Positions 5,665 through 27,048 of a stretch of DNA of 64,000 nucleotides are shown in pieces. Within the stretch, counting starts at the first letter, position 1. Each line of letters begins with the position of its first letter. The position numbers were made by a program, and so were the translations under genes. The notes below the pieces were generated by a model. That model did no database searches and was not told where the DNA came from. It saw nothing but the letters and a program-made list of their open reading frames with translations. This DNA comes from Kineosphaera limosa NBRC 100340. GTDB taxonomy: Bacteria > Actinomycetota > Actinomycetes > Actinomycetales > Dermatophilaceae. The stretch covers positions 1 through 64,000 of the forward strand of contig NZ_BAHD01000004.1 in the NCBI RefSeq assembly GCF_000298215.1. The letters are read 5' to 3'.

Positions 5665-6428
5665 ACGTGCTCCTCCTCGGTGCTCGCCAGGATCTGCGCC
5701 AGGTGGATCGGTTTGACGCCGGCGTGCTGGCGGTTCAGCACCCCGGTGATGTTCAGCAGGCACAGGTTGTCGCCCGCCACGAGGTACTCGGCGCCGGTGT
5801 CGGCGACGTGCCGGGCCTTGTCGCCGGCCATCGCCACGGAGACATCCGGGTTCTTCATCGCGAACGTGCCGCCGAAACCGCAGCAGCGGTCCGCGTCCTC
5901 CAGGTCGAGGATCGTGATGCCCCGGACCGCCGACAGCAACCGCATCGGCTTGTCGCCGACGTGCGCGATCCGCATCGAGTGGCACGTCGGGTGGTACGTC
6001 ACCTTGTGCGGAAAGAACGCCCCGACGTCGGTGACGCCGAGCACGTCGACGAGAAACTCGCTGATGTCGTAGGTGCGGCCCGCGACCTCGTGCGCGGCCC
6101 GCGCCAACCCGGCGTCACCGCCGTGCTCGGCGAGCATCTCGTGCTGGTGCCGCACGGCCCCCACGCAGCTGCCCGAGGGGCCGACGATGTAGTCGTACGG
6201 CCCGAAGGTGTCGACGTAGTTACGCACGAGCGGCACGCTCTCGGTGAAGTAGCCGCTGTTGGCGAACGGCTGCCCGCAACACGTCTGCTTCTCGGGGAAC
6301 ACGACCGTGCAGCCCAGCCGCTCCAGGATCTGCACCACCGCCTTGGGCGTGTCCGGGAACATCACGTCGTTGGCGCACGTGGCGAAGAGCGCCACACGGG
6401 GACTTTGCACTGCGGTGCCGGAGCTCAT
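5661..6428 (-). CDS. lutA: LutA, CCG-domain heterodisulfide-reductase-like protein
   Basis: 255 residues starting MSSGTAVQSPRVALFATC. Two cysteine-rich CCG domains are visible: TCCGQPFANSG in the N-terminal half and CCGFGGTFAMK in the C-terminal half, the typical LutA/GlpC/HdrB architecture that binds an unusual FeS centre. It follows lldP by 38 bp and overlaps lutB by 4 bp. Role: subunit of the lactate-oxidising LutABC complex. The start could also be a few codons upstream, but this ATG gives the family N-terminus. Confidence 0.95.
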   Translation of the reverse strand: MSSGTAVQSPRVALFATCANDVMFPDTPKAVVQILERLGCTVVFPEKQTCCGQPFANSGYFTESVPLVRNYVDTFGPYDYIVGPSGSCVGAVRHQHEMLAEHGGDAGLARAAHEVAGRTYDISEFLVDVLGVTDVGAFFPHKVTYHPTCHSMRIAHVGDKPMRLLSAVRGITILDLEDADRCCGFGGTFAMKNPDVSVAMAGDKARHVADTGAEYLVAGDNLCLLNITGVLNRQHAGVKPIHLAQILASTEEEHV

Positions 6429-6466
6429 GTCTCCATCCAAGCAAACATTGGGTGCTGTCGGGTCGC

Positions 6467-8206
6467 TCACGGCAGCATCCAGCTGAGCACGGGGGTGGAT
6501 TGCAGACCGACGATCAGGCACATGACCACGAGCAGGCTCAGGCTCCACCAGATGACCTTGCGGAAGATGTCGGCCTCGCGACCGAGCAGCCCCACGGCCG
6601 TGGCGGCGATCGTCAGGTTCTGCGGACTGATCATCTTGCCGACGACCCCGCCGGAGGTGTTGGCCGCCACCAGCAGCGTCGGGTCGATGCCGATCTCCTG
6701 CGCCGCGGTCTGCTGCAAGGTGGCGAACAGCGCGTTCGCGGACGTGTCCGAGCCGGTGACGGCGGTGCCCAGCCAGCCCAGCACGGGGGACAGGAACGCG
6801 AACGCGGCGCCGGTGCCGGCGATCCAGTGACCGATGGTGATCGTCTGCCCGGAGAGGTTCATGACGTACGCCAACGAGAGGACCGTCGCGACCGTCAGGA
6901 TCGCGAAGCGCATCTTGTGCGCGTTGAACGCCACGACCTTGGCCCAGTCGGCCAGGCTCACCCGGTAGGCGAAGGCGACGATGAGCCCGCAGATGAGCAG
7001 GATCGTGCCGGGACTCGACAGCCACGTGAACGTGTAGACGGTCGAGGAGTTAGGGGTGCCCGCCGCGGTGAGTACCTGACCGTCCAGGCCCGGCCACGGG
7101 ATCTTGAGATCGGTGGCGGTCAGCGCCGCGTTGGCCGCAGGGACGAGCTTGGCGACCGTGAAGAACGCGATGACCAGCAGGTACGGGAAGAGGGCCATGA
7201 AGATGCGCCCGCCGGTCAGCGGGGAGGTGTCCTGCCGGGTCTGGGTCGCGGTGGCCGCGCCTGCGCCCCCGCTGTGACCGGCGCCCGCCATCGTGCCGGT
7301 GGGGTCGTTGGGGTCGCTCGCGCCGAGCTCGGCGATCTCGCGCTGGTGCGCCTCGAACAGGGAGGCGCGGGCCTCATCGCGACCCTGCGGCTGCCAGAAG
7401 CGCAGCATGACGACGATCGCGGCCAGCCCGCACAGCGAGGAGATGATGTCGGTCAGCTCCATCGAGATGTACGTCGCGCTGATCCACTGGGTCACGCCGA
7501 AGACCGCGCCGGCCACGACCGCCAGGGGCCACGTCTGCCGCAGTCCGCGCTTGCCGTCGGTGAGGAAGGCGATGAACATCGGCACGAAGAACGCGATGAT
7601 CGGAGTCTGGTGGCCCACGTAGGCGCCGATCGTCGCCGGGTCGATGTGGGTGAGGCGGCCGGCCGTCAGGATCGGGGTGCCGATCGCGCCGAAGGCGACG
7701 GGCGCGGTGTTGGCCAGGAGCACGACGGTGGCGGCGCGCAGCGCCGAGAAGCCGACGGCCATGAGCATGACGCCGGTGATGGCCACGGGGGCGCCGAAGC
7801 CGGCGAGCGCCTCCATGAGGCCGCCGAAGCAGAACGCGATGACGATGGCCTGCACGCGCGGGTCGTCGGAGATGAGGTCGAAGACCTTGCGCAGGTCTTC
7901 GAAGCGGCCGCTGTGCACGGTGATCTCGTACAGCACGATCGCGTTGAAGACGATCCACATGATGGGGAACAGGCCGAACACGCCGCCCTGCACCGCGGAA
8001 CCGAAGGCCAGCAGCGGCGGCATCCGGTAGATGAGGATCGCGACGAGCAGCGCCACGCCCAGGGCCGTCAGGCCGGCGATGTGCGCCTTCCAGCGCAGCC
8101 CGCCGAGGGTGATGAAGATCGTCAGAAGAGGTAGGCAGGCGACGAGCGCCGACAGGGCCAACGACCCGCCGAGGGGGGCGAGGTCCGGCTGGTAGGCCGC
8201 GATCAT
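6467..8206 (-). CDS. lldP: L-lactate permease
   Basis: 579 residues, more than ten hydrophobic helices, with lactate-permease signatures such as FCFGGLMEALAGFGAPVAI and VTGSDTSANALFATLQ. The ATG at 8206 (MIAAYQPDL) has GGAG eight bases upstream; the frame continues to 8299 but that part crosses the operator and is not protein-like. It imports lactate (also glycolate) with protons. First gene of the lactate operon, divergent from the FadR-type regulator, with the operator between them. Confidence 0.95.
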   Translation of the reverse strand: MIAAYQPDLAPLGGSLALSALVACLPLLTIFITLGGLRWKAHIAGLTALGVALLVAILIYRMPPLLAFGSAVQGGVFGLFPIMWIVFNAIVLYEITVHSGRFEDLRKVFDLISDDPRVQAIVIAFCFGGLMEALAGFGAPVAITGVMLMAVGFSALRAATVVLLANTAPVAFGAIGTPILTAGRLTHIDPATIGAYVGHQTPIIAFFVPMFIAFLTDGKRGLRQTWPLAVVAGAVFGVTQWISATYISMELTDIISSLCGLAAIVVMLRFWQPQGRDEARASLFEAHQREIAELGASDPNDPTGTMAGAGHSGGAGAATATQTRQDTSPLTGGRIFMALFPYLLVIAFFTVAKLVPAANAALTATDLKIPWPGLDGQVLTAAGTPNSSTVYTFTWLSSPGTILLICGLIVAFAYRVSLADWAKVVAFNAHKMRFAILTVATVLSLAYVMNLSGQTITIGHWIAGTGAAFAFLSPVLGWLGTAVTGSDTSANALFATLQQTAAQEIGIDPTLLVAANTSGGVVGKMISPQNLTIAATAVGLLGREADIFRKVIWWSLSLLVVMCLIVGLQSTPVLSWMLP

Positions 8207-9375: not shown

Positions 9376-10047
9376 TCACTGAATCTGGGTCAGCACCTGT
9401 TCGATCTTCTCCTCCGAGACGATGCCGACGTGGGTGGCCCGCAACACCCCTTGGCGGTCGATGAAGAAGTGCGCCGGGATGCCCATGACGCGGTAGTTCG
9501 CCGCCAGCGCGGTCTGGGGATCCGGCACGTGCGCGAACGTCAGCCCCAGCCGGTCGGCGAACTGCTGCACGGTCAGGGTGTCCTCGGAAAGGTAGACGGC
9601 GACGACGGCCAGGCCATCCGGGTCGGCGGCGGCGTGGGCCGCCTGGATGTCGGGCGCCTCCACGCGGCAAGCCGAGCACCACGAGGCGCCGAACGTCAGC
9701 CACACCGGTCGGCCGCGCAGGGATGCCAGCGAGATCTCCGCGCCCTTCGTGGAGCGCACCGTGAAGTCCGGGGCGCTCTGCTCGAGCGCCGGCGCCGGGC
9801 CGGTTCCGCCGGTAAGTTGCACCGCCTCCACACCGCCCTGGGGGCCGGCCGCCGGGTCTGAGCCGGGGCGCACGAGGTAGGCCCCGACGGTCACCAGCAG
9901 CGCGGTCACGGCGAGCACCGCGATCGTGCCCGTGCGGCTGCCGCGCAGCTTGGCCCGCCAGTCCTTCTGGGGGACCGGGTCGCCGGCCTCGTCCGCGGCC
10001 GGAGGGGAGGGCCGGCCGGAGGCGGAGGTGTCCAGGTCGTTGGTCAT
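9376..10047 (-). CDS. TlpA/ResA-like membrane-anchored thioredoxin
   Basis: 223 residues. One N-terminal membrane anchor (about 41-59) is followed by an extracytoplasmic redoxin domain (about 88-223) with the active site W-CSAC (Cys124, Cys127) and a cis-Pro region GIPAHFFID. ResA/CcsX-type proteins reduce the CXXCH disulfide of apocytochrome c so that haem can be attached. Here it closes the ccdA-resB-ccsB-tlpA run and so very probably serves maturation of the NrfH and NrfA cytochromes. The distance to ccsB is 9 bp. Confidence 0.88.
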   Translation of the reverse strand: MTNDLDTSASGRPSPPAADEAGDPVPQKDWRAKLRGSRTGTIAVLAVTALLVTVGAYLVRPGSDPAAGPQGGVEAVQLTGGTGPAPALEQSAPDFTVRSTKGAEISLASLRGRPVWLTFGASWCSACRVEAPDIQAAHAAADPDGLAVVAVYLSEDTLTVQQFADRLGLTFAHVPDPQTALAANYRVMGIPAHFFIDRQGVLRATHVGIVSEEKIEQVLTQIQ

Positions 10048-10056
10048 CGCCGTGCC

Positions 10057-11028
10057 TCAGGCGTAGGAGTGCAGGCCACCGAGAAAAAGGTTGCCGAAGT
10101 AGGTGAACAGGATCGCGACGAAGCCCAGGATCAGCAGCCACGCGGCGCGCTCACCGCGCCAGTCGCGGGCGACGCGGGCGTGCAGGTAGGCGCCGTAGAT
10201 GAGCCAGGTGACCAGGGCCGCGGTCTCCTTGGGGTCCCAGCTCCAGTAGCGGCCCCAGGCGACATTGGCCCAGACCGCCCCGAGGATGATCATGACCGTC
10301 AGCAGCGGGTAGGTGACGATCGCGGAGCGGTAGCCGATCTCGTCGAGCAGTTGCCGACTCGGCAGACCGCGCCCGCGCACGTGCGGATGCACCAGGTACA
10401 TGACGGCCGCGCCGAACGCGACCGCTCCGGCACCGTAGGCCAGCACGGCGCAGGCCACGTGGATCGTCAACATCAGGTTGTTGTGCAACGCCGGTACAAG
10501 CGGCCGCACCTGCGCCTCGACCGTGTCGGCGTAGATGAGCATCGCCAACGCGACAGGCAACACGACGAGCCCGAGCATGCGCACCCGGTAACGCCACGCG
10601 AACAGCACGTAGGCCACGAGGATCCCCCAGGAGAACGCGACCGCGAACTCGTGCTGGTTGGCCCACGGCCCGTGCCCCGTGGTGATGGCGCGGGTGACGA
10701 GGTTGATGCTCAGGAAGATCGCGGCTAACTGCACGACCTTCTCGGCGTACCAGACGAGTCCGAAGGGCCGGTCGCTGGACCCCGCACCGCGGTCCGGGTC
10801 GTAGCCGACGACCGCGTCGAGCGGGTTGCCGAACTCATCGACCGCCTCCGGGCCAGTACCGGAGCCGGGGGTTGCGGGTCCGCCGGCCATGGCGTGGGAG
10901 CGGGGGCGTTGGGTCGAGCGGTCCTCCTCGTGCCGGCGATAGCGCACGGCGATGACGACGTGGGCCACGACGGCGATCGCGACCAGCCCGGTGGCCGCCA
11001 GGAGGGCGTATTGCGAGATGTCGAACAT
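10057..11028 (-). CDS. ccsB: Cytochrome c biogenesis protein CcsB/CcsA (haem handling, System II)
   Basis: 323 residues starting MFDISQYALL; the longer frame to 11319 is a shadow of resB. About eight membrane helices and the tryptophan-rich haem-binding motif WGRYWSWDPKE, diagnostic of the CcsA/CcmC/CcmF superfamily, lie in the C-terminal half. With ResB it forms the System II cytochrome c synthase that exports haem and ligates it to CXXCH motifs. It begins 11 bp after resB. Confidence 0.93.
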   Translation of the reverse strand: MFDISQYALLAATGLVAIAVVAHVVIAVRYRRHEEDRSTQRPRSHAMAGGPATPGSGTGPEAVDEFGNPLDAVVGYDPDRGAGSSDRPFGLVWYAEKVVQLAAIFLSINLVTRAITTGHGPWANQHEFAVAFSWGILVAYVLFAWRYRVRMLGLVVLPVALAMLIYADTVEAQVRPLVPALHNNLMLTIHVACAVLAYGAGAVAFGAAVMYLVHPHVRGRGLPSRQLLDEIGYRSAIVTYPLLTVMIILGAVWANVAWGRYWSWDPKETAALVTWLIYGAYLHARVARDWRGERAAWLLILGFVAILFTYFGNLFLGGLHSYA

Positions 11029-11039
11029 GTCCAGACCTT

Positions 11040-12653
11040 TCAGCCGGGGCGGTGGGTGGAGCTGGGCAGGTGGGCCGGATCCGCCGGGCCGGTGCGGCCG
11101 CGGGACTGCGCCACGACCTGAGCGACCATGCGGCGGAAGCGGCGTTCGTAGCCGATGTCGAAGCGGTCGGCGGAGGCGATGCGCACCCGCGACCGCGGCG
11201 CGCCCGGCACGTAGGAGGGATGGCCGGGTTCGATCGGGCGGACCCGTACCCACAGGCGGCGCTGCTTGACGAAGAACGTCAGCAGGAAGCCCACGGACAT
11301 CAGGCCTGCACCGATCCACACGACGATCGCGCCCCGGTCACGGGCCACCGACAGCCCGGTGAACTGACGCTCGCGGTGAAACGTGACGTTGAGTCCCTCG
11401 ACCTGCGAAGTGGAGCCCTGGTCCAACAGCGCGGAATCGGTGCGTTCGGTGGCCTCGACGGGCACGGCGTCGACCTGTACCTGGCCCGGCGCGACCAGTG
11501 CGTCGAGCCGACCGGAGGCGGCGGTGATGATCCACAGCTTCATGCCGTGCTCGGGCAGGGTCACCGAGCCGAAGACGTGCCGCTCGTCGTCGGTCGTGTA
11601 CTGCAGCGGCACCCCGCCGTCGAAGAGCACGGTGCCGGTTGTGTCAGTGATCCGCATCATCGCGGCGATGCCGAAGTAGGACTGGTAGATCATCACGCCG
11701 TCGTAGGCCAGCGGAGTGTTGACGCGGATCTCCTGGCGCGCGACCTGCCGGCCGCCGTCGAACAAGGTGATGTCGGAGACGAAGTCCATCGGCTGGCCGT
11801 CGGGGTGGTAGCTGTCGCTGAACGAGTTGACCTGGATCGTCAGGTCGGTGTCCTGCCCGACGGCCCGGCTCTGCCCCACGGTCACCGGAAACTCGTTGAG
11901 GCGGAATCCGAGGGCGGAGGTGATGAGCACCCCGAGCAGGATGACGACGAAGGCGGTGTGCGCGACGAGCGTGGAGAACGGGGCGTACCTGAAGCGGTCG
12001 GCGTAGCTGGACCGCTGCGGGTCCTTGGGGTTGCTCAGGATGCGGTAGTGGTGGGCGCGCAGCACGTCCTCGACGCCGGCTCGGGCCTGCTCGGGGGTGC
12101 CGGCGACGACGACATCCGCTCGGAGGCCGGCGTGGTCGAAGAAGCGTTCGCCGGCATGGGTGTGCGGGTGCATCGAGCGCTGCCACAGTTGCGGGCAGCG
12201 GTGCGCGGTGCACGCGATGATGCTCAGCGTCAGCATGATCGTGGTGATCTTGAACCACCACGATGCGAAGACGTGGTAGAAGCCCAGCGTCGCCAGGATG
12301 TCCGTCCAGCCGCCGTAGCGCGGGCGGTTGCGGTCGATCCACGAGGCGTAGGCCTCCGGGTCGCCACGCACCCCGTCGGGCGACTGCTGGATCATCGTGC
12401 CGACCAGCGTCAGGAACGCCATGAACAGGATGATCGCGATGGCCGTCTGCTTGTTGTAGAAGAACGCCACAGTCTTGCGGGCGATCCGGTGCAGCAGGCT
12501 TGAGCCACGCTTGCGGGGACCGCGGCCGCCGCCGCGCCGCGCGGTCGGTGGCGGCGGGGGTGTCTGGGGTGGCGGCGCCCCGGGACCGGAGCGCGAGTCG
12601 TCGATGGTGCGGGCGAGCACCTGCGGGCCGGCCAGGTCGACGGATCGGGTCAT
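11040..12653 (-). CDS. resB: ResB-like cytochrome c synthase subunit
   Basis: 537 residues from ATG 12653. A proline-rich cytoplasmic N-terminus (about 1-60) leads into three membrane helices, a large extracytoplasmic domain (about 210-455, including FRYAPFSTLVAHTAFVVILL and YDGVMIYQSYFGIA) and a last helix followed by a cytoplasmic tail. This is the ResB/Ccs1 architecture. It partners CcsB in haem ligation. The gene lies between ccdA and ccsB in the nitrite-ammonification locus. Confidence 0.92.
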   Translation of the reverse strand: MTRSVDLAGPQVLARTIDDSRSGPGAPPPQTPPPPPTARRGGGRGPRKRGSSLLHRIARKTVAFFYNKQTAIAIILFMAFLTLVGTMIQQSPDGVRGDPEAYASWIDRNRPRYGGWTDILATLGFYHVFASWWFKITTIMLTLSIIACTAHRCPQLWQRSMHPHTHAGERFFDHAGLRADVVVAGTPEQARAGVEDVLRAHHYRILSNPKDPQRSSYADRFRYAPFSTLVAHTAFVVILLGVLITSALGFRLNEFPVTVGQSRAVGQDTDLTIQVNSFSDSYHPDGQPMDFVSDITLFDGGRQVARQEIRVNTPLAYDGVMIYQSYFGIAAMMRITDTTGTVLFDGGVPLQYTTDDERHVFGSVTLPEHGMKLWIITAASGRLDALVAPGQVQVDAVPVEATERTDSALLDQGSTSQVEGLNVTFHRERQFTGLSVARDRGAIVVWIGAGLMSVGFLLTFFVKQRRLWVRVRPIEPGHPSYVPGAPRSRVRIASADRFDIGYERRFRRMVAQVVAQSRGRTGPADPAHLPSSTHRPG

Positions 12654-12664
12654 CGTCACGTTCC

Positions 12665-13555
12665 TCACAGACCGTAGGTGGGCAGCAGGCCGGTGAGCCG
12701 GCCGAAGAGATCGGCAATCATCGCGAACCCGAGCAGCACGAGCAGGCCGCCGCTGATCAGGCTCACGGTGGTGTGGTGCCCGGCGAGCGCGCGCATGCGG
12801 CGCTGCACCGCGTGGGCGCCCAGGGTGACCAGCACGAACGGAATGCCCAGGCCCAGGCAGTAGGCGAGCAGCAACACAATCCCCTGGCCCAGACTGTCTC
12901 CGGTCGACGCGAGCCCGATCACGGCGCCGAGGGTGGGGCCGATGCAGGGGGTCCACCCGGCCCCGAAGGCCAAACCCATGAGCAGCGAGCGGCGGTAGCT
13001 GGGACGCAGGGCCGCCGGGGCGGGAACGCCGGGCGGAGCAGCGGTCGCGACGGTGTCGGGGCGCTGCCCGCCGCGAGTCTCCGGGTGGCCGAGCGTTCCC
13101 CGGGGGTGGCCAGGGGAGTCACCGGCCGCCCGCAATACCGTGCTCATCGGCACGCGCACCTGACGACGCAGGAACGGCAGCTCGATGAGGCCCGCCACGT
13201 GCAGGCCCAGGACGACGATGACGACGCCGCCGACGATCCGCAGGGTGCCGCGGTAGGGGCCCAGCACGTGACCGAGCAGGCCGACCGAGGCCCAGACAGC
13301 GACGAACACGAGCGTGAAGCCGAGGACGAACACGACGGCCTGGGCCGCCGCGGCCCGGCGCAGTTGCCGCATCCGTGCCGCCGCGAGGTGATCGTCGATC
13401 CGCGACTCGGCGCTCCCCGCGGCCAACGCCTCCGCCTGCCCACCCATGAGGTAACTGACGAAGACCGGCACCACGGGTAGGAAGCACGGGGAGGCGAAGG
13501 ACAGCACCCCGGCGGCCACCACGAGCGGCAGCGCGAGGAGCGTCGAGGCGATCAT
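12665..13555 (-). CDS. ccdA: CcdA-type thiol:disulfide transporter
   Basis: 296 residues with six membrane helices and the paired cysteines of the family, one in SFASPCFLPVVPV near the N-terminus and one in GAGWTPCIGPTLG. It carries reducing equivalents from cytoplasmic thioredoxin to extracytoplasmic TlpA/ResA. Unusual is a long hydrophilic loop (about 148-190, Gly/Pro/Arg rich) between helices 3 and 4. The gene lies 6 bp after the TPR gene and 11 bp before resB. Confidence 0.92.
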   Translation of the reverse strand: MIASTLLALPLVVAAGVLSFASPCFLPVVPVFVSYLMGGQAEALAAGSAESRIDDHLAAARMRQLRRAAAAQAVVFVLGFTLVFVAVWASVGLLGHVLGPYRGTLRIVGGVVIVVLGLHVAGLIELPFLRRQVRVPMSTVLRAAGDSPGHPRGTLGHPETRGGQRPDTVATAAPPGVPAPAALRPSYRRSLLMGLAFGAGWTPCIGPTLGAVIGLASTGDSLGQGIVLLLAYCLGLGIPFVLVTLGAHAVQRRMRALAGHHTTVSLISGGLLVLLGFAMIADLFGRLTGLLPTYGL

Positions 13556-13561
13556 CGCGGG

Positions 13562-14575
13562 CTACTTGGTCGTGGAGGGTTCGGGCACGGTGCTCGGCGT
13601 GGCGGCCGGGCTCGTGGCGCCGGAGACCGGCGGGTGATTGGCGGGCATTCTGGCCATCCGCTCCAGGTGCGCCGTGGCGGTCTTGGCGATCTGAGAGCCG
13701 GGGGCGAGCTCGGCGACCTTGGTCCACTCGGCCTCCGCTGCCTTGACGTCGGCGGGAGTCTTGGACAGGTACAAGAAGCCCAGGTCGTAGTGCGCTTCAG
13801 CCACCTTGGGGTCGATGCGCAGCACCTCGCGCCATTCCTTCTCGGCCGCCGCCATGTTGCCCTGGTTGAACAGGCTGGCGCCCAGGGCCAGGCGGGCGTC
13901 GGTGTCGTTCGGGGTCACCTGCAGCACGGCCGTCTGCCAGTGAGCCGCCTGGGAGTAGTCCGCGGCCTGCACGTACATGTTGGCCAACTCCCGCATGGCG
14001 TCGGTGTCCTTGGCGTCGGCGGCCACCTTGGCCGCCAGCGCCTGGATAGCCTTGGGGTCGATCGGGATCGGGGTCTGGCCCATGCCCATCCCGGCCGCCA
14101 TGCCCTGCCCGCCGCGTGAGCCCATGTTCTGGTTCATGCCGGTGGCGGCCGCCTCCTGCTCGGCGGTGGAGGCCCGGTCGCCGAGCTGATACACCCCGAA
14201 CAGCACCCCAAGGACGATGACGACCAGCGCCATCACGGTGACCGGGGTGTTGGATTTCCGGGGTGCCGGCTGATACTGCACCGGCGGCGGCTCGCCGATG
14301 TCGCCGAGATCGCGCAGCGCCAAGGGGATGGCGTCGGCGGCCGCGCCGTCGGCGGTCAGGGCCGCATGGGCGACCTTGGCCGTGCGTTGTTGTTCCAGCG
14401 CCCAGGCGCGCAACGGCTGCGGCGCGTGCTCCAGATAGCGCAACAGGTCGTCGTGCAGCGCGTCGAGCTCGGCGTCGGTGATCTTGTGATCGACGCCGAA
14501 CCAGGCGCGTAGCCGCCCGTCCAGATCCGAGGAGGTGTCGCGCGGCTCGGCCCCGCCTGCTGCACCCGTGGTCAT
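13562..14575 (-). CDS. Membrane-anchored TPR protein of the cytochrome c maturation operon
   Basis: 337 residues from ATG 14575 (AGGAG eleven bases upstream); the longer frame to 14878 is non-coding upstream sequence. An N-terminal cytoplasmic segment is followed by one membrane helix (about 112-132), a Met/Gly-rich linker and TPR repeats (about 165-310; ANMYVQAADYSQAAHWQ and ASLFNQGNMAAAEKEW), with a Pro/Ser/Thr-rich tail. CcmH/CycH-like TPR domains hold apocytochrome c for haem ligation. First gene of the maturation operon, so a chaperone for NrfA/NrfH is the natural inference. Confidence 0.75.
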   Translation of the reverse strand: MTTGAAGGAEPRDTSSDLDGRLRAWFGVDHKITDAELDALHDDLLRYLEHAPQPLRAWALEQQRTAKVAHAALTADGAAADAIPLALRDLGDIGEPPPVQYQPAPRKSNTPVTVMALVVIVLGVLFGVYQLGDRASTAEQEAAATGMNQNMGSRGGQGMAAGMGMGQTPIPIDPKAIQALAAKVAADAKDTDAMRELANMYVQAADYSQAAHWQTAVLQVTPNDTDARLALGASLFNQGNMAAAEKEWREVLRIDPKVAEAHYDLGFLYLSKTPADVKAAEAEWTKVAELAPGSQIAKTATAHLERMARMPANHPPVSGATSPAATPSTVPEPSTTK

Positions 14576-14911
14576 GCCAATCCCTGCTCCTTCTTTCGCG
14601 GCCCTGCGAAATGTCGGTGCGAATGTGCTGCCCACCCACCCTCGCCGCGTCGTGCGGGCGCAACAATCCACCGGAGGGCATGGGCGGGGTAGACCTCTAT
14701 CGACCGCCGGGGGTACCGACCAGTCCATCGGGCGGTACATCAGGCGGGTACAGCGCGATCGGCCCGACGCGGGCCCGCACCGTGAAGCGGCGGTGCCGGG
14801 AGCATGCATCCCGACACCGCCGCCTTCTTCACGGGCCGCCACAGGGGCCACTGTGGGCCCGTGGTCCTGCATCGTCACCGTCGGGTGAGCCGCCCCCGCC
14901 GGTGACCGCTC
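14576..14911. other. Gene-free interval between nrfA and the maturation operon
   Basis: 336 bp without a convincing gene. It holds the nrfA-side hairpin (14780-14833), and closer to the TPR gene the likely promoter of the maturation operon. A CTCTATC element at 14695-14701 (GATAGAG on the other strand) also occurs in the nrfH upstream region. No coding-like frame stands out from the GC background. Confidence 0.6.
14780..14833 (-). terminator. Long imperfect hairpin downstream of nrfA
   Basis: CCGTGAAG and CGGCGGTG on the left pair with CACCGCCG and CTTCACGG on the right, with a small bulge, capped by a GCATGC-centred loop. The structure lies about 80 bp past the nrfA stop and is a probable terminator or mRNA 3'-stabilising structure that separates nrfHA from the maturation genes. 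Confidence 0.6.
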
Positions 14912-16482
14912 TCACGGTGTACCGGTGGCCCCGGGCGTGCCCGCAGGGCTCGGGGGTGCCGTGACCGTCGGGGTCGCCGGCGGGGTCGGTGTGGCCGTCG
15001 CGTTCGCCGGTTTGGGGCTGGGGGCCGGGCCGCTCTGGTCGGGCCCGTCCAGCTCCGCCGGCTCGGTCACCGTGCCCGCCAGCGCCGCCTGGCCCTTGCG
15101 CGCCGCGTCGATGGCGTCGGCGAAGATGCGACCGGACTCGGCCGGCGCGTGGAACCCGTAGGAGTTCTCCGAGTACAGGTAGTCGATGAAGAAGCTCGCC
15201 TTGCGGTGGTAGCTGCGGGCGACTTCGATGCGCTTGGCTTCGGTGCCGTCGGTCTGCGCCTTCTCCAGGTCGGTGATGAGCGCCAGCAGCGAATCCATCG
15301 CCACATCGCGGCTGTGGATGAATCGGTCCTGAATGGTCTTGACTCGGCTGTTCAGGTCGTCTTCGGACACGCTGTGGCAGGACTGGCAGGCATTGTTGAC
15401 CATGAGCAGCGGGCTGCGAATGTGGTGGTCGGTGAGTTTGACCGCTCCCTCCCGCTTGTACGGCATGTGGCAGTCGGCGCAGCCCACGCCGGCGGCGGCG
15501 TGGATGCCTTGCTGGGAGAGGTCGAACTCGGGGTGCTGAGCCTTGAGCATCTTGGTGCCCGTGGAGGGATAGACCCAGTCGATGTGATCGGTGGAGTCGG
15601 CCATGATCGAATCGACCGTCAGGCCCTTGCCCCACGGGAAGGTCAGCGTCTTGCTCTCGCCCTCGAGTAGTACTCGACGTGGCATTGCGCACAGACGAAC
15701 GTACGCATCTCCGCCGGGGTGGCGTCGCGGTTCACGTCGTAATCGGTGACGCCCTCATGTGCCTTGAGTTTTTTCATGCCTTCGGCGAATGCGGGGCGGG
15801 TGATGCGTAGTTCCATGGTGGTGGCGTCGTGGCAGTCGATGCAGGCGACCGGGTGCTCGGCGAGCTTGGTGGCCTCTTCGTAGGGCATCTTGTTCATGAT
15901 CTCGAAGCCCTTGTTGATGTCGCCGTCGCCGAGTTGCTTCATGACGGGGTAGGTGGAGGCGTGGCAGTTCAGGCACACGCCAGGCTGGTTGAACTCCAGC
16001 ACGCGGCGCGTCAGCCGCTGGTCCTCGAGCATGTAGGCGTGCCCGCGAGCCTCGCGGTAGGCCACGGAGAACGGGTACCCGGTCCACATCGTCACCAGCC
16101 GCGGATCGTGCTCCAGGCGACTCTCGGTGGCGGTCCGCGTGGTGCCGTCCGCCATCGTCACCTGCACGGGTTTGGAGCCCCCGTGATCCGTGGGGACCAT
16201 TTCGCTGGTCGCCTGCCACATCTGGTAATGCAGCGGGAAGTTCTTGCCCCATTCCGCCGGATCGTAGCTCTCGTCGGTCAGCTGTACCGTCTGGAAGGCG
16301 AACTGTTCGCCCTCGTGCCGACGTTCCAGAATGTTGACCAGCAGCGCGGTCATGCCCATCGTGACCAGGGCCACGACCAGCACGCTGCCGAGCAGCACAA
16401 GTCGTCGGCGGTTTCGGTGCGAACGATTCGTCTCGGGCGCCTTGGGTGCCGGCGTTGACCCGTTGTTCGTGGATTCGCTCAT
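14912..16482 (-). pseudogene. nrfA: Cytochrome c nitrite reductase NrfA, split by a one-base deletion
   Basis: Two frames together make a complete NrfA (about 523 residues). The first (stop at 15643) has a signal anchor (about 28-52), haem sites CLNCH, CIDCH and CAQCH and the conserved VEYY; the second (to 14912) has EGESKTLTFPWGKG, haem sites CADCH and CQSCH and a Pro/Thr-rich tail. At about 15671 the DNA reads TACTAC-TC-GAG; one added base restores a codon NTC (Phe if T) and the family motif YYFEGE. NrfA reduces nitrite to ammonium. The first haem site is CXXCH, not CXXCK. Start ATG 16482 has AGGTGA five bases upstream. Could be a sequencing error. Confidence 0.88.
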
Positions 16483-16491
16483 ACTCCTCAC

Positions 16492-16965
16492 CTACAGATG
16501 GCCGACGTTGCGGTGACAGGCCACGCACGACTGCGTCGTGCTGTGGACGCGGGGGGCGCGCATGTCCGAGGTGATGTCCGCGTGGCAGTACAGGCACGCG
16601 TTCTCGGTCACCTCGAGGTTGTGCGGCTTGATGCGGATGTTGTCGGGAAAGTCGCCCGTGGTCATGGCCAGCCCGTGGAAGAAGCCGTTCGTGGCTTTCG
16701 TGGCGTATTTTCCGACGATGTCGTGCGGAGCGTGGCAGTCGTTGCAGGTCGCCACTTTGCCGTGGCTGGAGGCCATCCAGCCGGCGTACTGATCGCGCAT
16801 CGTGTGGCAGTTGATGCAGGCCTGCGGATCGTTCGTCAGGTACGAGGCGCCGTTGGCATAGCCGAACGTGAACACGCCCACCCCCAGCAGCGACCCGATG
16901 ACGAACACGGCCAGCCCAGCCAGTGCTCGTTTGGCCGTCAGAAACCCTCTGAGTGCGGACGTCAT
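16492..16965 (-). CDS. nrfH: NrfH tetrahaem quinol dehydrogenase
   Basis: 157 residues from ATG 16965 (upstream ATGs at 16983-17001 possible; GAGGG precedes 16965 suitably). One N-terminal membrane anchor (about 14-34) and four haem sites CINCH, CNDCH, CLYCH and CVACH, the NapC/NirT/NrfH pattern. It takes electrons from menaquinol and feeds NrfA on the outer face of the membrane. The stop lies 10 bp before the nrfA start, so the two are one operon. Confidence 0.95.
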   Translation of the reverse strand: MTSALRGFLTAKRALAGLAVFVIGSLLGVGVFTFGYANGASYLTNDPQACINCHTMRDQYAGWMASSHGKVATCNDCHAPHDIVGKYATKATNGFFHGLAMTTGDFPDNIRIKPHNLEVTENACLYCHADITSDMRAPRVHSTTQSCVACHRNVGHL

Positions 16966-17064
16966 ACGTGCTGCCCTCATCGCCATCCGACCTCGCTCCA
17001 CGTGCGCGCGACTGCGCTCCTTGTGCTCAGGCTCTACTCAGGCGCGGCGAAAGACCATCCGTCG

Positions 17065-17186: not shown

Positions 17187-17885
17187 TCAGGGCATCGGGG
17201 CCGCGTTGCCCAAGCCGTGCCGCACGACGTAGGCGGCGGCTTGGATGCGGTTCTCCATGTGCAGCTTGTGCAGCGCGTTGTGTACGTGGTTCTTCACCGT
17301 GCCCTCGGTGATGTGCAGCTGGCGCCCGATCTGCCGGTTGGTCAGGCCCTCCGCGACCAGACGCAGGATCTCCAGTTCGCGCTCACTGAGGTCGGCCCGC
17401 TTGGGCGGCGCCGTCGGCGTCGGCGGGACCGCGGGAGTGCCGCGCACGTGCGAGAGCAGGCGGGAGACGAGGGCCGGGGACAGCGGGCTCTCGTCGCGCA
17501 TGCAGGCCCGGATCATGTCGAACAACTGATGGGGGCGCAGGTCCTTGAGCAGGTACCCGTGGGCGCCCTGACGCACCGCGTCGACCAGATGCTCGTCGTC
17601 TCCCACGACGCTGAGCATGAGCACCTTGGCGGCGGGAGCCTGCGCTCGGACCAGCCCCGCCGCCTCGATCCCGCCCATCACCGGCATCTCGACGTCGAGC
17701 AAGACCACATCGGGTTGGAGCTCACGGGCCTTCTCCACGCCGAGCAGCCCGTTGTCGGCCTGCCCGACCACGTGCAGGTCCGGCTCGTCCTCGATGAGGC
17801 AGGAGATCGCCATCCGGAACAACGGCTGGTCGTCCACGACGAGCACGCGGATGGGGTCCGTCGCCACGTCCATACATACGCTCAC
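17187..17885 (-). CDS. NarL/FixJ-family response regulator
   Basis: 232 residues from the GTG at 17885, which overlaps the kinase stop (GTGA) and has GGAG five bases upstream. Receiver domain about 10-125 with phospho-acceptor Asp in VVLLDVEMPVMGG and the switch lysine in YLLKDLRP; a linker rich in Pro/Thr; LuxR-type HTH about 165-230 (LSERELEILRLVAEGLTNRQ). Cotranscribed with the kinase and placed directly upstream of nrfHA in the same orientation, it is the best candidate regulator of nitrite ammonification. Confidence 0.92.
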   Translation of the reverse strand: MSVCMDVATDPIRVLVVDDQPLFRMAISCLIEDEPDLHVVGQADNGLLGVEKARELQPDVVLLDVEMPVMGGIEAAGLVRAQAPAAKVLMLSVVGDDEHLVDAVRQGAHGYLLKDLRPHQLFDMIRACMRDESPLSPALVSRLLSHVRGTPAVPPTPTAPPKRADLSERELEILRLVAEGLTNRQIGRQLHITEGTVKNHVHNALHKLHMENRIQAAAYVVRHGLGNAAPMP

Positions 17886-19390
17886 GCGCTGTCTCCGTTC
17901 TGGGCTCTTGGGAGGGTCCGGTGCCCCGGGCACGGCCGAGGCGGGCGGGCTGCCGCGGTGCTGTGCCGGATCTGGCAGTCGTCGCGGATCGGGCAGGGCC
18001 GGCAACAATCCAACGCGGCCAAGGTCGTCAACGGGCCCAGGCACTCACCGGCGTCGAGGGAGTGCGCGGCGGCCACCGCAACCGGTGAGCCCTCGCGCTG
18101 GCGGGGCAACAGCACACCCACGCTGGTACCGCAGCCCGGCTCGGAGTCGACCCGCAGGTGCCTGGTCGCGGCGGCGGCGCGCTCGCGCATCGTGTGCAGG
18201 CCGAAGCCGTCGCTGCGCCCCAGCTCGTGGGAGTCGAAGCCGCGACCGTCGTCCCGGACCACGACGAGCGTGCAGCCGTCCCGGGCATGTACGTGCACGG
18301 TCACTGCGTGCGCACGCGCATGCTTGCGCACATTGGTCAGGGCCTCCTGCACGAGCCGCAACACCTCGGCGCGTCGTGCCTGGGGCATGTCGATCAGGAC
18401 GTCGCCCTCGATGAGCAGGCGGGCCGGCACGCCGGCGGAACGCTCGAACGAGGCGACCGCACGTTGCAACGCCTGCGGCAGACCGCCCTCCGTTCGGGCC
18501 GTCTCGCGCAGCACGAAGATCGACTCGCGCACATCGGTGTGCGCCTCCCGGCAGATGTCGGCCAGCTCCCGCAGCTGCGCGCCGGTCGGTTCGTCGGCCA
18601 GTTCGGGCCGAGAGCCGATCGCCCACAGCCGCAGATGCGCGACCGAGAGCACCTGCGCCAGGCTGTCGTGCATCTCCCGGGCGATGCGCACCCGTTCGCC
18701 GAGCACTGCGGTGGTGTGCGCCGCGGCGATCATGCGGCCGTGGTCCTGGGCGAGCCCAGCGAGCCGCGCGAGGGCATCGAGCGTGCGCTGATCGCCGCGC
18801 TCGAAGCCGCGGCGGTGTCGACTGACCCACAGCACGGGACGCTCGAGCGCTGGTCCGTCGGTCGGGCTCTCGCCCTGGGCTCGAGCGTCGCTGCCGGTGA
18901 GCACATGTTTGTCGGCCGGGACCGGTCGCCGGGCAGCCGCCTCGCCGCCGGCCGCCATTCCCGCGTCGTCCGCTGCGAGCAGGGCCCTCGCGTGCCGCAG
19001 GATGAGTTCGGCGGTCCTGGCGGGAGCCTCTTCGCGGGATATCGCCTGCAGGATGTCGTTGAGCGACTCCAGTTCGCGGTTGCGGCTCAGCGCGAGGCGA
19101 TAGGCCCGCATGACGAATAAGAGGGCGGTGGCGGACAGCACGAACACCGCGAAATGCAGTCCGAGAACCCCGGCGTGCTCCTCCTCCAGCGGGAGGGCCT
19201 GTACGACCAGCGGGCCGAGCGCTTGCAGACCGACGATCGCCAGTACGGGGGCGGCGATGCCCACGACGATGAGCCGCCGCAGCCGCCCGTCGTCCCAGGC
19301 GGCAGCGGCCCGCGTGCGAGCAGAGGGCGGGGCAGCGGCTACGTTGCCGCCGCGCGCGTGGGTCCCCTTGCGTGCCCTGACCAGTGCCAC
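17882..19390 (-). CDS. Histidine kinase (HisKA_3 type) with a C-terminal Wbl-like cysteine cluster
   Basis: About 502 residues from the GTG at 19390 (the frame runs to 19570, but that part crosses a palindrome and is not protein-like). Two membrane helices (about 40-64 and 76-95), a GAF-like middle region, the phospho-acceptor motif REMHDSLAQ (His about 241) and a HATPase_c domain (EALTNVRKHA, DDGRGFD). After the ATPase domain a tail contains Cys450, Cys462-463, Cys466 and Cys472, i.e. C-X12-C-X2-C-X5-C, the spacing class of WhiB-like 4Fe-4S sites. This suggests redox, O2 or NO sensing. Coupled to the response regulator next to nrfHA. Confidence 0.88.
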   Translation of the reverse strand: MALVRARKGTHARGGNVAAAPPSARTRAAAAWDDGRLRRLIVVGIAAPVLAIVGLQALGPLVVQALPLEEEHAGVLGLHFAVFVLSATALLFVMRAYRLALSRNRELESLNDILQAISREEAPARTAELILRHARALLAADDAGMAAGGEAAARRPVPADKHVLTGSDARAQGESPTDGPALERPVLWVSRHRRGFERGDQRTLDALARLAGLAQDHGRMIAAAHTTAVLGERVRIAREMHDSLAQVLSVAHLRLWAIGSRPELADEPTGAQLRELADICREAHTDVRESIFVLRETARTEGGLPQALQRAVASFERSAGVPARLLIEGDVLIDMPQARRAEVLRLVQEALTNVRKHARAHAVTVHVHARDGCTLVVVRDDGRGFDSHELGRSDGFGLHTMRERAAAATRHLRVDSEPGCGTSVGVLLPRQREGSPVAVAAAHSLDAGECLGPLTTLAALDCCRPCPIRDDCQIRHSTAAARPPRPCPGHRTLPRAQNGDSA

Positions 19391-19429
19391 CGTCCGTGCC
19401 CCATCGTGAAACGAAAACCAAGGCTGAGG

Positions 19430-19452
19430 CCGTAACAATACCGACGTTACGG
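19430..19452. promoter_or_regulatory. Inverted repeat upstream of the kinase gene
   Basis: CCGTAAC and GTTACGG are perfect 7-bp arms around 9 bp, centred about 50 bp upstream of the kinase GTG and about 150 bp upstream of vapB. It looks like an operator of the two-component operon. It also argues that the kinase start lies downstream of it. Confidence 0.4.
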
Positions 19453-19588
19453 ACTGTGAGCGGGTCTGCGAACAGGCGTTATCCCAGGAAAGGCGCAGGG
19501 CTCGATAATAGGTCGCACCACCCCCAAAGACTCGAGCGCCAAACCGCCTTCGACGCCTGTTCAGCTGCAATGCTGCTAAATTGCTGCT

Positions 19589-19825
19589 ATGGGTGTCGCA
19601 ATGACTGTGCGAGACGTGCCGGAGCCGGTGCGGGACGAACTGGCCGCCCGGGCGGCGCGTGCTGGGCAGTCGTTGCAGGAGTACCTGCGCACGATGCTCG
19701 TCCGCAGCGCCTCGCGTCCAGACGTCGACGACGTCATCGCGCGGGCGCGGGCCCGCGTGGCGACGACGGGGTCGCGGGTGGACGCCGCCACCATCTTGGC
19801 GGCCCGAGACGCTGACCGTCGGTGA
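19589..19825 (+). CDS. vapB: VapB/FitA-type antitoxin
   Basis: 78 residues. The N-terminal half (MTVRDVPEPVRDEL and a helix through SLQEYLRTML) is a ribbon-helix-helix domain of the FitA/VapB class; the C-terminal part is a charged tail that would wrap the toxin. It ends with TGA overlapping the GTG of the PIN toxin. No Shine-Dalgarno is evident before either ATG (19589 or 19601), and GCAAT/ATTGC arms at 19567-19584 lie immediately upstream, a possible autoregulatory site. Confidence 0.85.
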   Translation: MGVAMTVRDVPEPVRDELAARAARAGQSLQEYLRTMLVRSASRPDVDDVIARARARVATTGSRVDAATILAARDADRR

Positions 19826-20232
19826 GTGCTGATCTCGTCTGCGACGCCTCCGCGCTGGTGGCGCTCCTGCTCGACGGGGGCCCAGACGGTGCGTGGGCGA
19901 GCCGCACCCTCGCCGGCGCGAACCTGGCCACCGCTGCCGTGTGCCGATTCGAGGCGGGCAATATCATCCGGCGCCACGAGGCCGCCGGTCTCATCGGCAG
20001 CGACCAGGCCGCGCTGGCGCACACAGATCTGCTGGATCTCGCGCTGACGGAGTGGCCGTACGAGACGCTCGCCGAACGGGCCTGGGCACTGCGGCCCAAC
20101 CTGACGAGCTATGACGCCTCGTACGTGGCGCTCGCCGAGTTGCTCGAGGTGCCATTGGTCACCCTCGACCGCCGCGTCGGTCGCGCCTCGGGTCAGGCAT
20201 GCACCGTGCTCACGCCGGAACAAGGAGCCTGA
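19822..20232 (+). CDS. vapC: VapC-type PIN-domain toxin
   Basis: 136 residues from GTG 19822. PIN signatures are present: Asp in LVCDASALVALLL, Glu in CRFEAGNIIRR, Asp in TSYDASYVALAE and Asp in LVTLDRRVGR, the acidic set that binds Mg in RNases of the VapC family. The 4-bp overlap with the antitoxin is typical of vapBC operons. Targets (often tRNA) cannot be read from sequence. Confidence 0.9.
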   Translation: MSADLVCDASALVALLLDGGPDGAWASRTLAGANLATAAVCRFEAGNIIRRHEAAGLIGSDQAALAHTDLLDLALTEWPYETLAERAWALRPNLTSYDASYVALAELLEVPLVTLDRRVGRASGQACTVLTPEQGA

Positions 20233-26011: not shown

Positions 26012-26068
26012 CGAGGACCTCCAGTGAGAGGGTGGGTGTGGTACCCGCCTCCGCACTGGAGGTCCTCG
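26012..26068. terminator. Perfect 15-bp inverted repeat after the enoyl-CoA hydratase
   Basis: CGAGGACCTCCAGTG (26012-26026) pairs perfectly with CACTGGAGGTCCTCG (26054-26068); the 27-nt loop is GC-rich and has its own GAGGGTGGGTG / CCCGCCTCC complementarity. It could terminate the operon, but there is no U-tract and it sits directly before IS debris, so an element end is an alternative. Confidence 0.5.
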
Positions 26069-26250
26069 CTATTCGTCTAAGCCTCGGCGTTCACAACCTG
26101 CCGGGGGAACTACACCTGGGCAGGCCGTCGCGGACTCACGACCATTCAGCGTGCTGTCCTGGCACCCCTGTGCGTCTTGCTGAGGTGAGACACCATTTTC
26201 TTGAGTTCCTTGCCTGTGCACGGGGCGGAGAAGGCAGAGACCTGAAGACG

Positions 26251-27048
26251 ATGACGTTGGCCGACACGACCCGGATCGACGATGGGATGACCCCGAGAGG
26301 TGACCGTCCGAAACGGCGTACTTTCACTGCCGAGTACAAGATGAGGATCGTGGCCGAGTACGACGCCGCGGAGCATGGCGCGCGTAGTGCGATCCTGCGG
26401 CGGGAGGGCTTGTACTCCTCCCACGTCATCGATTGGCGCAAGGCAGCCGCGGCCGGCGCGGTCGGCGCACCGGGCCCCAGGATCGCTGAGCGTCGTGACC
26501 GGGAGATCGAGCAGCTCACGGCGCGTGCGGAGAAGGCCGAGGCCGAGCTCGCCCGGACTCGGGCGGCGTTGGACATCGTGGGAAAGCACACGCGCTCCTG
26601 GAGACGCTCTCCGAGAGCACCGGCACGCGCAAGCCGCCGCCGCGGTGGCCCGGCCGCGGGGTCCGGTTTCAGCTCTACGTCGTGCTCGACATCTTCTCCC
26701 GCTACGTCGTGGCCTGGACCGTCCAGAACGGGTGAGGACTCCCAGATCGCCATGACGATGCTCGAAGACGCGATGGGCGTCCACGGCGTCCCCGAGGCGG
26801 TCCACGCCGACCGGGGCACCTCGATGACCTCGAAACCGGTTGCCCAACTGCTGCTCGATCTCGGCGTCGACCGGTCCCACTCCCGGCCACGGGTGTCCAA
26901 CGACAACCCGTTCAGCGAGGCCGCGTTCAAGACCCTGAAGTACGCGCCCGCCTTCCCCGACTCGTTCGGGTCGCTGGCCGCACCGAAACTGCCCAAGGCC
27001 GCGTGGATCAACCAGCCCTCACCGGAGGCTCTCATACAGACCGCGTAA
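26251..27048 (+). pseudogene. Decayed IS3-family transposase (copy A, internal deletions and frameshifts)
   Basis: ORF A part (about 26251-26590): HTH transposase with FTAEYKMRIVAEYDAAEHGA and LYSSHVIDWRKAA plus a leucine-rich linker ending LDIVGKHT. Then a deletion, and pieces of the ORF B DDE integrase core: FQLYVVLDIFSRYVVAWTV is out of frame (about 26668-26737), then after a one-base insertion ameliorated frame gives VPEAVHADRGTSMTSKPVAQ and SRPRVSNDNPFSEAAFKTLK, and a second deletion joins to the C-terminus WINQPSPEALIQTA. Not functional. The same element occurs in decayed form at 31009-31340. Confidence 0.85.

Follow-up and report, generated by a model that had tools for sequence, protein, structure and literature searches.

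The sensor kinase encoded beside nrfHA in the 64,000-nucleotide stretch of Kineosphaera limosa NBRC 100340 analyzed here (the window) is, in the explanation that we favor as a whole, an ordinary membrane-bound NarX/NarQ-like (HisKA_3) kinase that controls nrf, and its cysteine-bearing C-terminal tail is probably lineage-specific filler in which the cysteines are incidental. Because the tail is unshared by the relatives examined and is not of the WhiB type, it is most likely an extra confined to this lineage. The catalytic anatomy of the kinase, the order of the genes, the overlap of the kinase frame with the regulator, and the absence of the tail from the relatives examined are established directly (Table 1).

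Table 1. Features of the nrf-linked kinase locus in the window
Feature	Position	Strand	Details
HisKA_3/HATPase_c sensor histidine kinase	17882..19390	minus	~502 aa from likely GTG at 19390
Cysteine-bearing C-terminal extension of the kinase, residues 510-562 + stop	17882..18043	minus	No family or PDB match; none in relatives examined
NarL-type response regulator (Response_reg + GerE)	17187..17885	minus	GTG start in kinase stop overlap
nrfH, NapC/NirT-type cytochrome c	16492..17001	minus	Cytochrom_NNT 4.8e-16
nrfA, cytochrome c552 nitrite reductase	14912..16491	minus	Two overlapping frames, 15643-16491 and 14912-15685
TPR, CcdA/DsbD-like, ResB, cytochrome c assembly, thioredoxin-like: c-type cytochrome maturation	9376..14878	minus	Outer ORF limits; starts uncertain

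The kinase ORF (17882-19570, minus strand) encodes 562 residues when read from its first TTG at 19570, and comparison with the kinase of Piscicoccus intestinalis suggests that the internal GTG listed in Table 1 is likely the better-fitting start. The protein belongs to the HisKA_3 sensor histidine kinases, as it combines a DHp domain carrying an EMHDSLAQ-type His motif (Pfam HisKA_3, PF07730, residues 292-357, 2.7e-13), which is invariant across 23 aligned sequences, with an HATPase_c domain (PF02518, residues 402-491, 1.8e-11). Pfam recognized no sensor domain in the N-terminal region of the kinase, in which two apparent helices and a short loop can be made out by eye. The look of the kinase alignment suggests a GAF-like linker, although neither the window kinase nor the two Austwickia kinases searched have a Pfam GAF match. 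In NCBIfam the kinase reaches 100.2 bits for NarQ (cut-off 553) and 87.9 bits for NarX (cut-off 578), far below both cut-offs, and it is accordingly not an equivalog of either protein. The NarL-type regulator encoded next to it scores 187 bits against NCBIfam NarL, below the equivalog cut-off of 250.

The genes on the minus strand run in the order kinase, NarL-type regulator, nrfH, nrfA, TPR protein, CcdA/DsbD-like protein, ResB, and cytochrome c assembly protein. The placement of the kinase next to nrfHA in the original prediction is thus borne out, with nrfH and then nrfA downstream of the response regulator. The thioredoxin-like label within the maturation region was read from the sequence alone. 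Just past the point where the kinase ORF begins, an ORF on the opposite strand (19822-20232, plus) encodes a PIN domain (Pfam PIN, 9.3e-11) and may be a VapC-type toxin. Farther away, a transposase-like ORF at 26032-27048 (plus strand) has weak, below-cut-off rve and HTH_Tnp_1 matches and is probably the remnant of an insertion sequence.

The tail beyond the ATPase domain reads CLGPLTTLAALDCCRPCPIRDDCQIRHSTAAARPPRPCPGHRTLPRAQNGDSA, followed by the stop, and occupies exactly 18043-17882 of the minus strand. It is rich in Pro, Ala, and Arg and lacks Trp. Its cysteines fall in the pattern C510-X11-C522-C523-X2-C526-X5-C532 with a sixth at residue 547 (codon starts 18043, 18007, 18004, 17995, 17977, and 17932). 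The codon positions confirm the C-X11-CC-X2-C-X5-C spacing that had been described after the ATPase domain; the earlier list of cysteines holds as to spacing and gains Cys547, which it had not included. Open random 53-codon stretches contain six or more cysteines with a frequency of 0.07% when drawn by shuffling the tail and 0.23% when drawn at the window's composition, and a C-X5-35-C-X2-C-X5-C pattern with a frequency of 0.012%-0.042%, giving by simple arithmetic a chance expectation of up to about 0.05 over 122 kinase tails. The cysteine pattern is therefore rare for one named tail and less so, and not extreme, over the many tails scanned. The tail gave no match at E up to 10 to Pfam, NCBIfam, or PDB sequences, in searches in which the Pfam and NCBIfam filters drop most matches above about 0.1. 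No description of this arrangement appears in the titles and abstract openings of the open-license PMC papers listed by searches on Wbl proteins and kinases, C-terminal redox cysteines, and Fe-S kinases.

Tail conservation was assessed over a broad pool of relatives. The kinase was matched in 16 of 58 relatives (E 1e-20), in two of the genus's three genomes (the remaining one being 83% complete), in 20 of 186 genomes of the family, and in 28 of 394 genomes of the class (E 1e-25), the last with two further matches without a locus; a search of genome contigs with the kinase gave 75 loci. Pooling these loci yielded 130 distinct kinase cores, including paralogues from the window's own genome. The pool excludes loci that had been retrieved for unrelated purposes (L102-L137, L156-L158) as well as three loci without a match at E 1e-8 (L098, L100, L101); loci with identical tails were counted once, and eight cores with an unreadable end were dropped (L002, L005, L037, L056, L061, L084, L088, L091). 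Among the resulting 122 distinct readable kinases, 116 have no cysteine after the ATPase domain and five have one; the window kinase, with six, is the only one of the 122 with two or more. Its tail is also the longest of the set, at 70 residues by the measure used for this comparison, the next being 45.

The same holds for the kinases most comparable to that of the window. The nrf-linked kinases of P. intestinalis, Austwickia, Mobilicoccus, and others, whose family we take to be the Dermatophilaceae, have the same core in the same place beside a regulator and nrfH, but the cysteine cluster is absent from all 14 with a readable end: 12 have no tail cysteine and two (L144, L148) have a single one, in contrast to the six of the window kinase. 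Piscicoccus intestinalis, which appears to be of the same genus as the window's genome, is the closest species whose kinase was compared. Its kinase is 51% identical over residues 59-498 of the window kinase and ends in 29 cysteine-free residues after the aligned core. When the window tail was compared with the P. intestinalis sequence from the ATPase domain to the regulator, similarity was non-significant both as DNA (p 0.29) and in three frames (p 0.13-0.74). When 297 genomes of the order were searched with the tail itself, 251 of them had matches at E up to 1, and the best of those listed, the tail's own match excepted, has an E of 0.003 per genome, which is chance level given the 297 genomes searched. 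By eye, the 29 loci returned besides its own contain no shared cysteine tail on a kinase. The original prediction had proposed conservation of the four cysteines in homologous kinases as a check and named their loss from homologues with an intact core as refuting it. That outcome was observed: the core of the kinase is retained in homologues, the sister species included, but the cysteines are not. The cysteine conservation by which an Fe-S or zinc-binding tail might be recognized was found in one kinase of the 122, that of the window. This absence from relatives is no proof of an absence of function.

The tail had been interpreted as a Wbl-type redox module gained at the C-terminus of the kinase, and this proposal fails when profile, spacing, and motif are compared. 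Features shared by Wbl proteins include four invariant cysteines and a G[V/I]WGG motif (PMC6282962, in part). The window genome contains six Wbl genes with first cysteine spacings of 21, 22, 22, 27, 28, and 29. The tail resembles them in its cysteine order, C...C-X2-C-X5-C, but its first spacing of 12 (or 11) lies outside their range of 21-29. The G[V/I]WGG motif is full in four of the six, reads GVWGA in one, and is lacking in one; the tail has neither the motif nor any Trp. Scored against a profile of the six Wbls the tail reaches 7.3 bits, versus 31.5-73.9 bits for each Wbl when left out and scored against the other five. The tail nevertheless outscores 974 of 1000 shuffles with the cysteines fixed and all 1000 full shuffles, which indicates that the letters around its cysteines are slightly more like a C-X2-C-X5-C knuckle than random letters would be, and its likeness to the Wbl knuckle appears weak and local. 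One tail-search locus besides its own contains CSSCPVATSCPVQ, which resembles the Fe-S knuckle of RecB/AdnB-like nucleases, so that C-X2-CP-X4-C is not specific to Wbl proteins. Profile score, first spacing, missing G[V/I]WGG, and the lack of a Pfam match (PF02467) at E up to 10, where weak matches are mostly filtered out, rule out membership of the tail in the Wbl family, and it is highly improbable that a true Wbl domain has been fused to the kinase. The tail may work like a redox module, though not as a Wbl.

Two further readings of the tail have to be set against filler with incidental cysteines. The tail could be in part an artefact of assembly or frame, in which an indel near the kinase end brings a between-gene stretch into the kinase frame. 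A sequencing error or true frameshift does occur near the kinase, since the contig's nrfA is broken into two frames where P. intestinalis has an uninterrupted nrfA; a neighboring frame has a stop at 18045; and in P. intestinalis the kinase stop lies 91 nt before the regulator (L027 7348-7441). That species is, however, the exception in a survey of 15 orthologous loci, 10 of which were assessable (five were not located by the script): the other nine have a start-stop overlap with the regulator, as ATGA. In the window the kinase stop likewise overlaps the GTG start of the regulator, as GTGA, with GGAG 7 nt upstream, and because the tail ends in this overlap its frame is probably right. The kinase frame also has the best codon-usage score of the six frames over residues 510-562, where comparison with shuffles lends weak support (synonymous p 0.01, all codons p 0.035); the signal is non-significant in the last 30 codons (p 0.15-0.19), and a between-gene stretch gives p 0.05-0.08 in the same test. 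On balance, we regard an artefact as rather unlikely. The tail could otherwise be a lineage-specific switch, four or five of its cysteines binding Fe-S or zinc or forming disulfides and thereby tuning the kinase by O2, NO, or redox state. A cysteine count and a C-X2-C-X5-C spacing that are both rare by chance fit this reading, as do the precedents considered below, namely Caulobacter FixT, NreB and AirS, and the four pre-DHp cysteines common to three Austwickia kinases at the same nrf locus. It is opposed by the lack of conserved cysteines in the 121 other readable tails, by the lack of a match to any known motif family, and by the absence of detectable similarity to the corresponding DNA and peptides of P. 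intestinalis, and we consider it unlikely, if the stronger of these two readings. Its most specific form, a cluster gained within one species beside the ATPase domain that binds metal or forms disulfides and lets redox state or NO act on the kinase at its catalytic end, where relatives such as Austwickia have cysteines in the pre-DHp linker instead, appears quite improbable.

Comparison with characterized sensors shows how far these precedents extend. Caulobacter FixT binds Fe-S via a four-cysteine motif that most Caulobacter sequences retain and FixT proteins elsewhere lack, although one of the four cysteines, C64, is widely conserved; inhibition by FixT in vitro needed the motif and not the cluster (sections of PMC7078487). 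As this lineage-restricted motif binds Fe-S and matters, lack of conservation alone is indecisive for the window tail. Both are found in two-component proteins, but the FixT motif lies in a receiver domain and was tested at the bench, whereas the window tail is a kinase extension known from its sequence. NreB and AirS are oxygen- or redox-responsive kinases that hold Fe-S by N-terminal cysteines (PMC4601167, in part), and the window kinase, which has no cysteine in residues 34-339 and hence none from its likely start up to residue 340, is not a sensor of this type. As in NreB and AirS, the cysteines of the Austwickia kinases precede the catalytic part. Three Austwickia kinases from the nrf locus (L011, L147, L144; 47-83% identical) have four cysteines in common in the GAF-like region, at sites of the form GxCL, C[IV], C, and CPA; they also share a cysteine in the linker before this region and another in the DHp domain. 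In the alignment the window kinase lacks the cysteines before the DHp domain but has the DHp cysteine. By eye, approximately 9 of 24 rows of the kinase alignment have a cysteine at one of the Austwickia sites. These cysteines are better conserved than those of the window tail, and an Fe-S or thiol sensor would more plausibly be sought in them.

The association of the kinase with nrf, unlike its tail, is shared by relatives. Gene order in P. intestinalis is the same as in the window from the kinase to the CcdA-like gene. The family search (E 1e-30) matched the kinase in 19 genomes besides the window's own, and nrfH lies beside the regulator in the fetched stretch in 13 of these (L139, L140, L011, L147, L144, L146, L150, L149, L148, L151, L152, L153, L154); in the other six the regulator is present, with no nrfH in the fetched stretch. 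With a Propioniciclava MAG (L032) as the fourteenth, kinase, NarL-type regulator, and nrfH occur together at 14 distinct loci besides the window's in which the kinase end is readable. The fetched DNA includes nrfA at seven of these, as seen in longer loci with identical tails, and does not extend far enough to show it at the rest. At a further locus, in Mobilicoccus caccae (L091), nrfH and nrfA are present and the kinase end is unreadable; that kinase (5866-6984) has no single frame running through the whole ATPase domain, possibly because of a frameshift. Since the kinase/regulator/nrfH/nrfA cluster is common to relatives, gene order indicates that the pair likely controls nrf. Of the earlier interpretation, the tie between sensor kinase and nitrite ammonification therefore stands, and the Wbl-type module does not. 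The split of nrfA in the window (14912-16491) reflects an indel introduced by sequencing or else a genuine pseudogene, and in the latter case nrf would be non-functional in this genome.

In the explanation of an ordinary kinase with a filler tail, a signal would be received through the two putative membrane helices and the GAF-like linker suggested by inspection and alignment, and the kinase would phosphorylate the NarL-type regulator, which would in turn act on nrfHA. Nitrate or nitrite increases the expression of nrf in E. coli by way of NarX-NarL and NarQ-NarP (PMC12285233, in part). The window pair likewise joins a HisKA_3 kinase and a NarL-type regulator tied to nrf, but falls under the equivalog cut-offs and lacks an N-terminal sensor-domain match; by analogy, it may answer nitrite, nitrate, or a related signal. 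Beyond the ATPase domain the tail would be a fast-evolving, probably disordered extension, kept open in frame by its terminal GTGA overlap, through which translation of kinase and regulator would be coupled, and its cysteines would have no function. Counting against filler are the presence of six cysteines in 53 residues, the score above most cysteine-fixed shuffles on the Wbl profile, and the lack of the overlap in the nearest relative, P. intestinalis.

As the evidence stands, the kinase of the window serves mainly as a warning against taking a cysteine motif seen in a single sequence for a domain. Were the tail a working redox switch, it would mean that a sensor kinase can acquire Fe-S or thiol control behind its ATPase domain, and can do so within a single genus. 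The pair of nrf-linked kinase and regulator, which accompanies nrfH at the 14 other loci, is a useful lead on the control of nitrite ammonification in actinobacteria.
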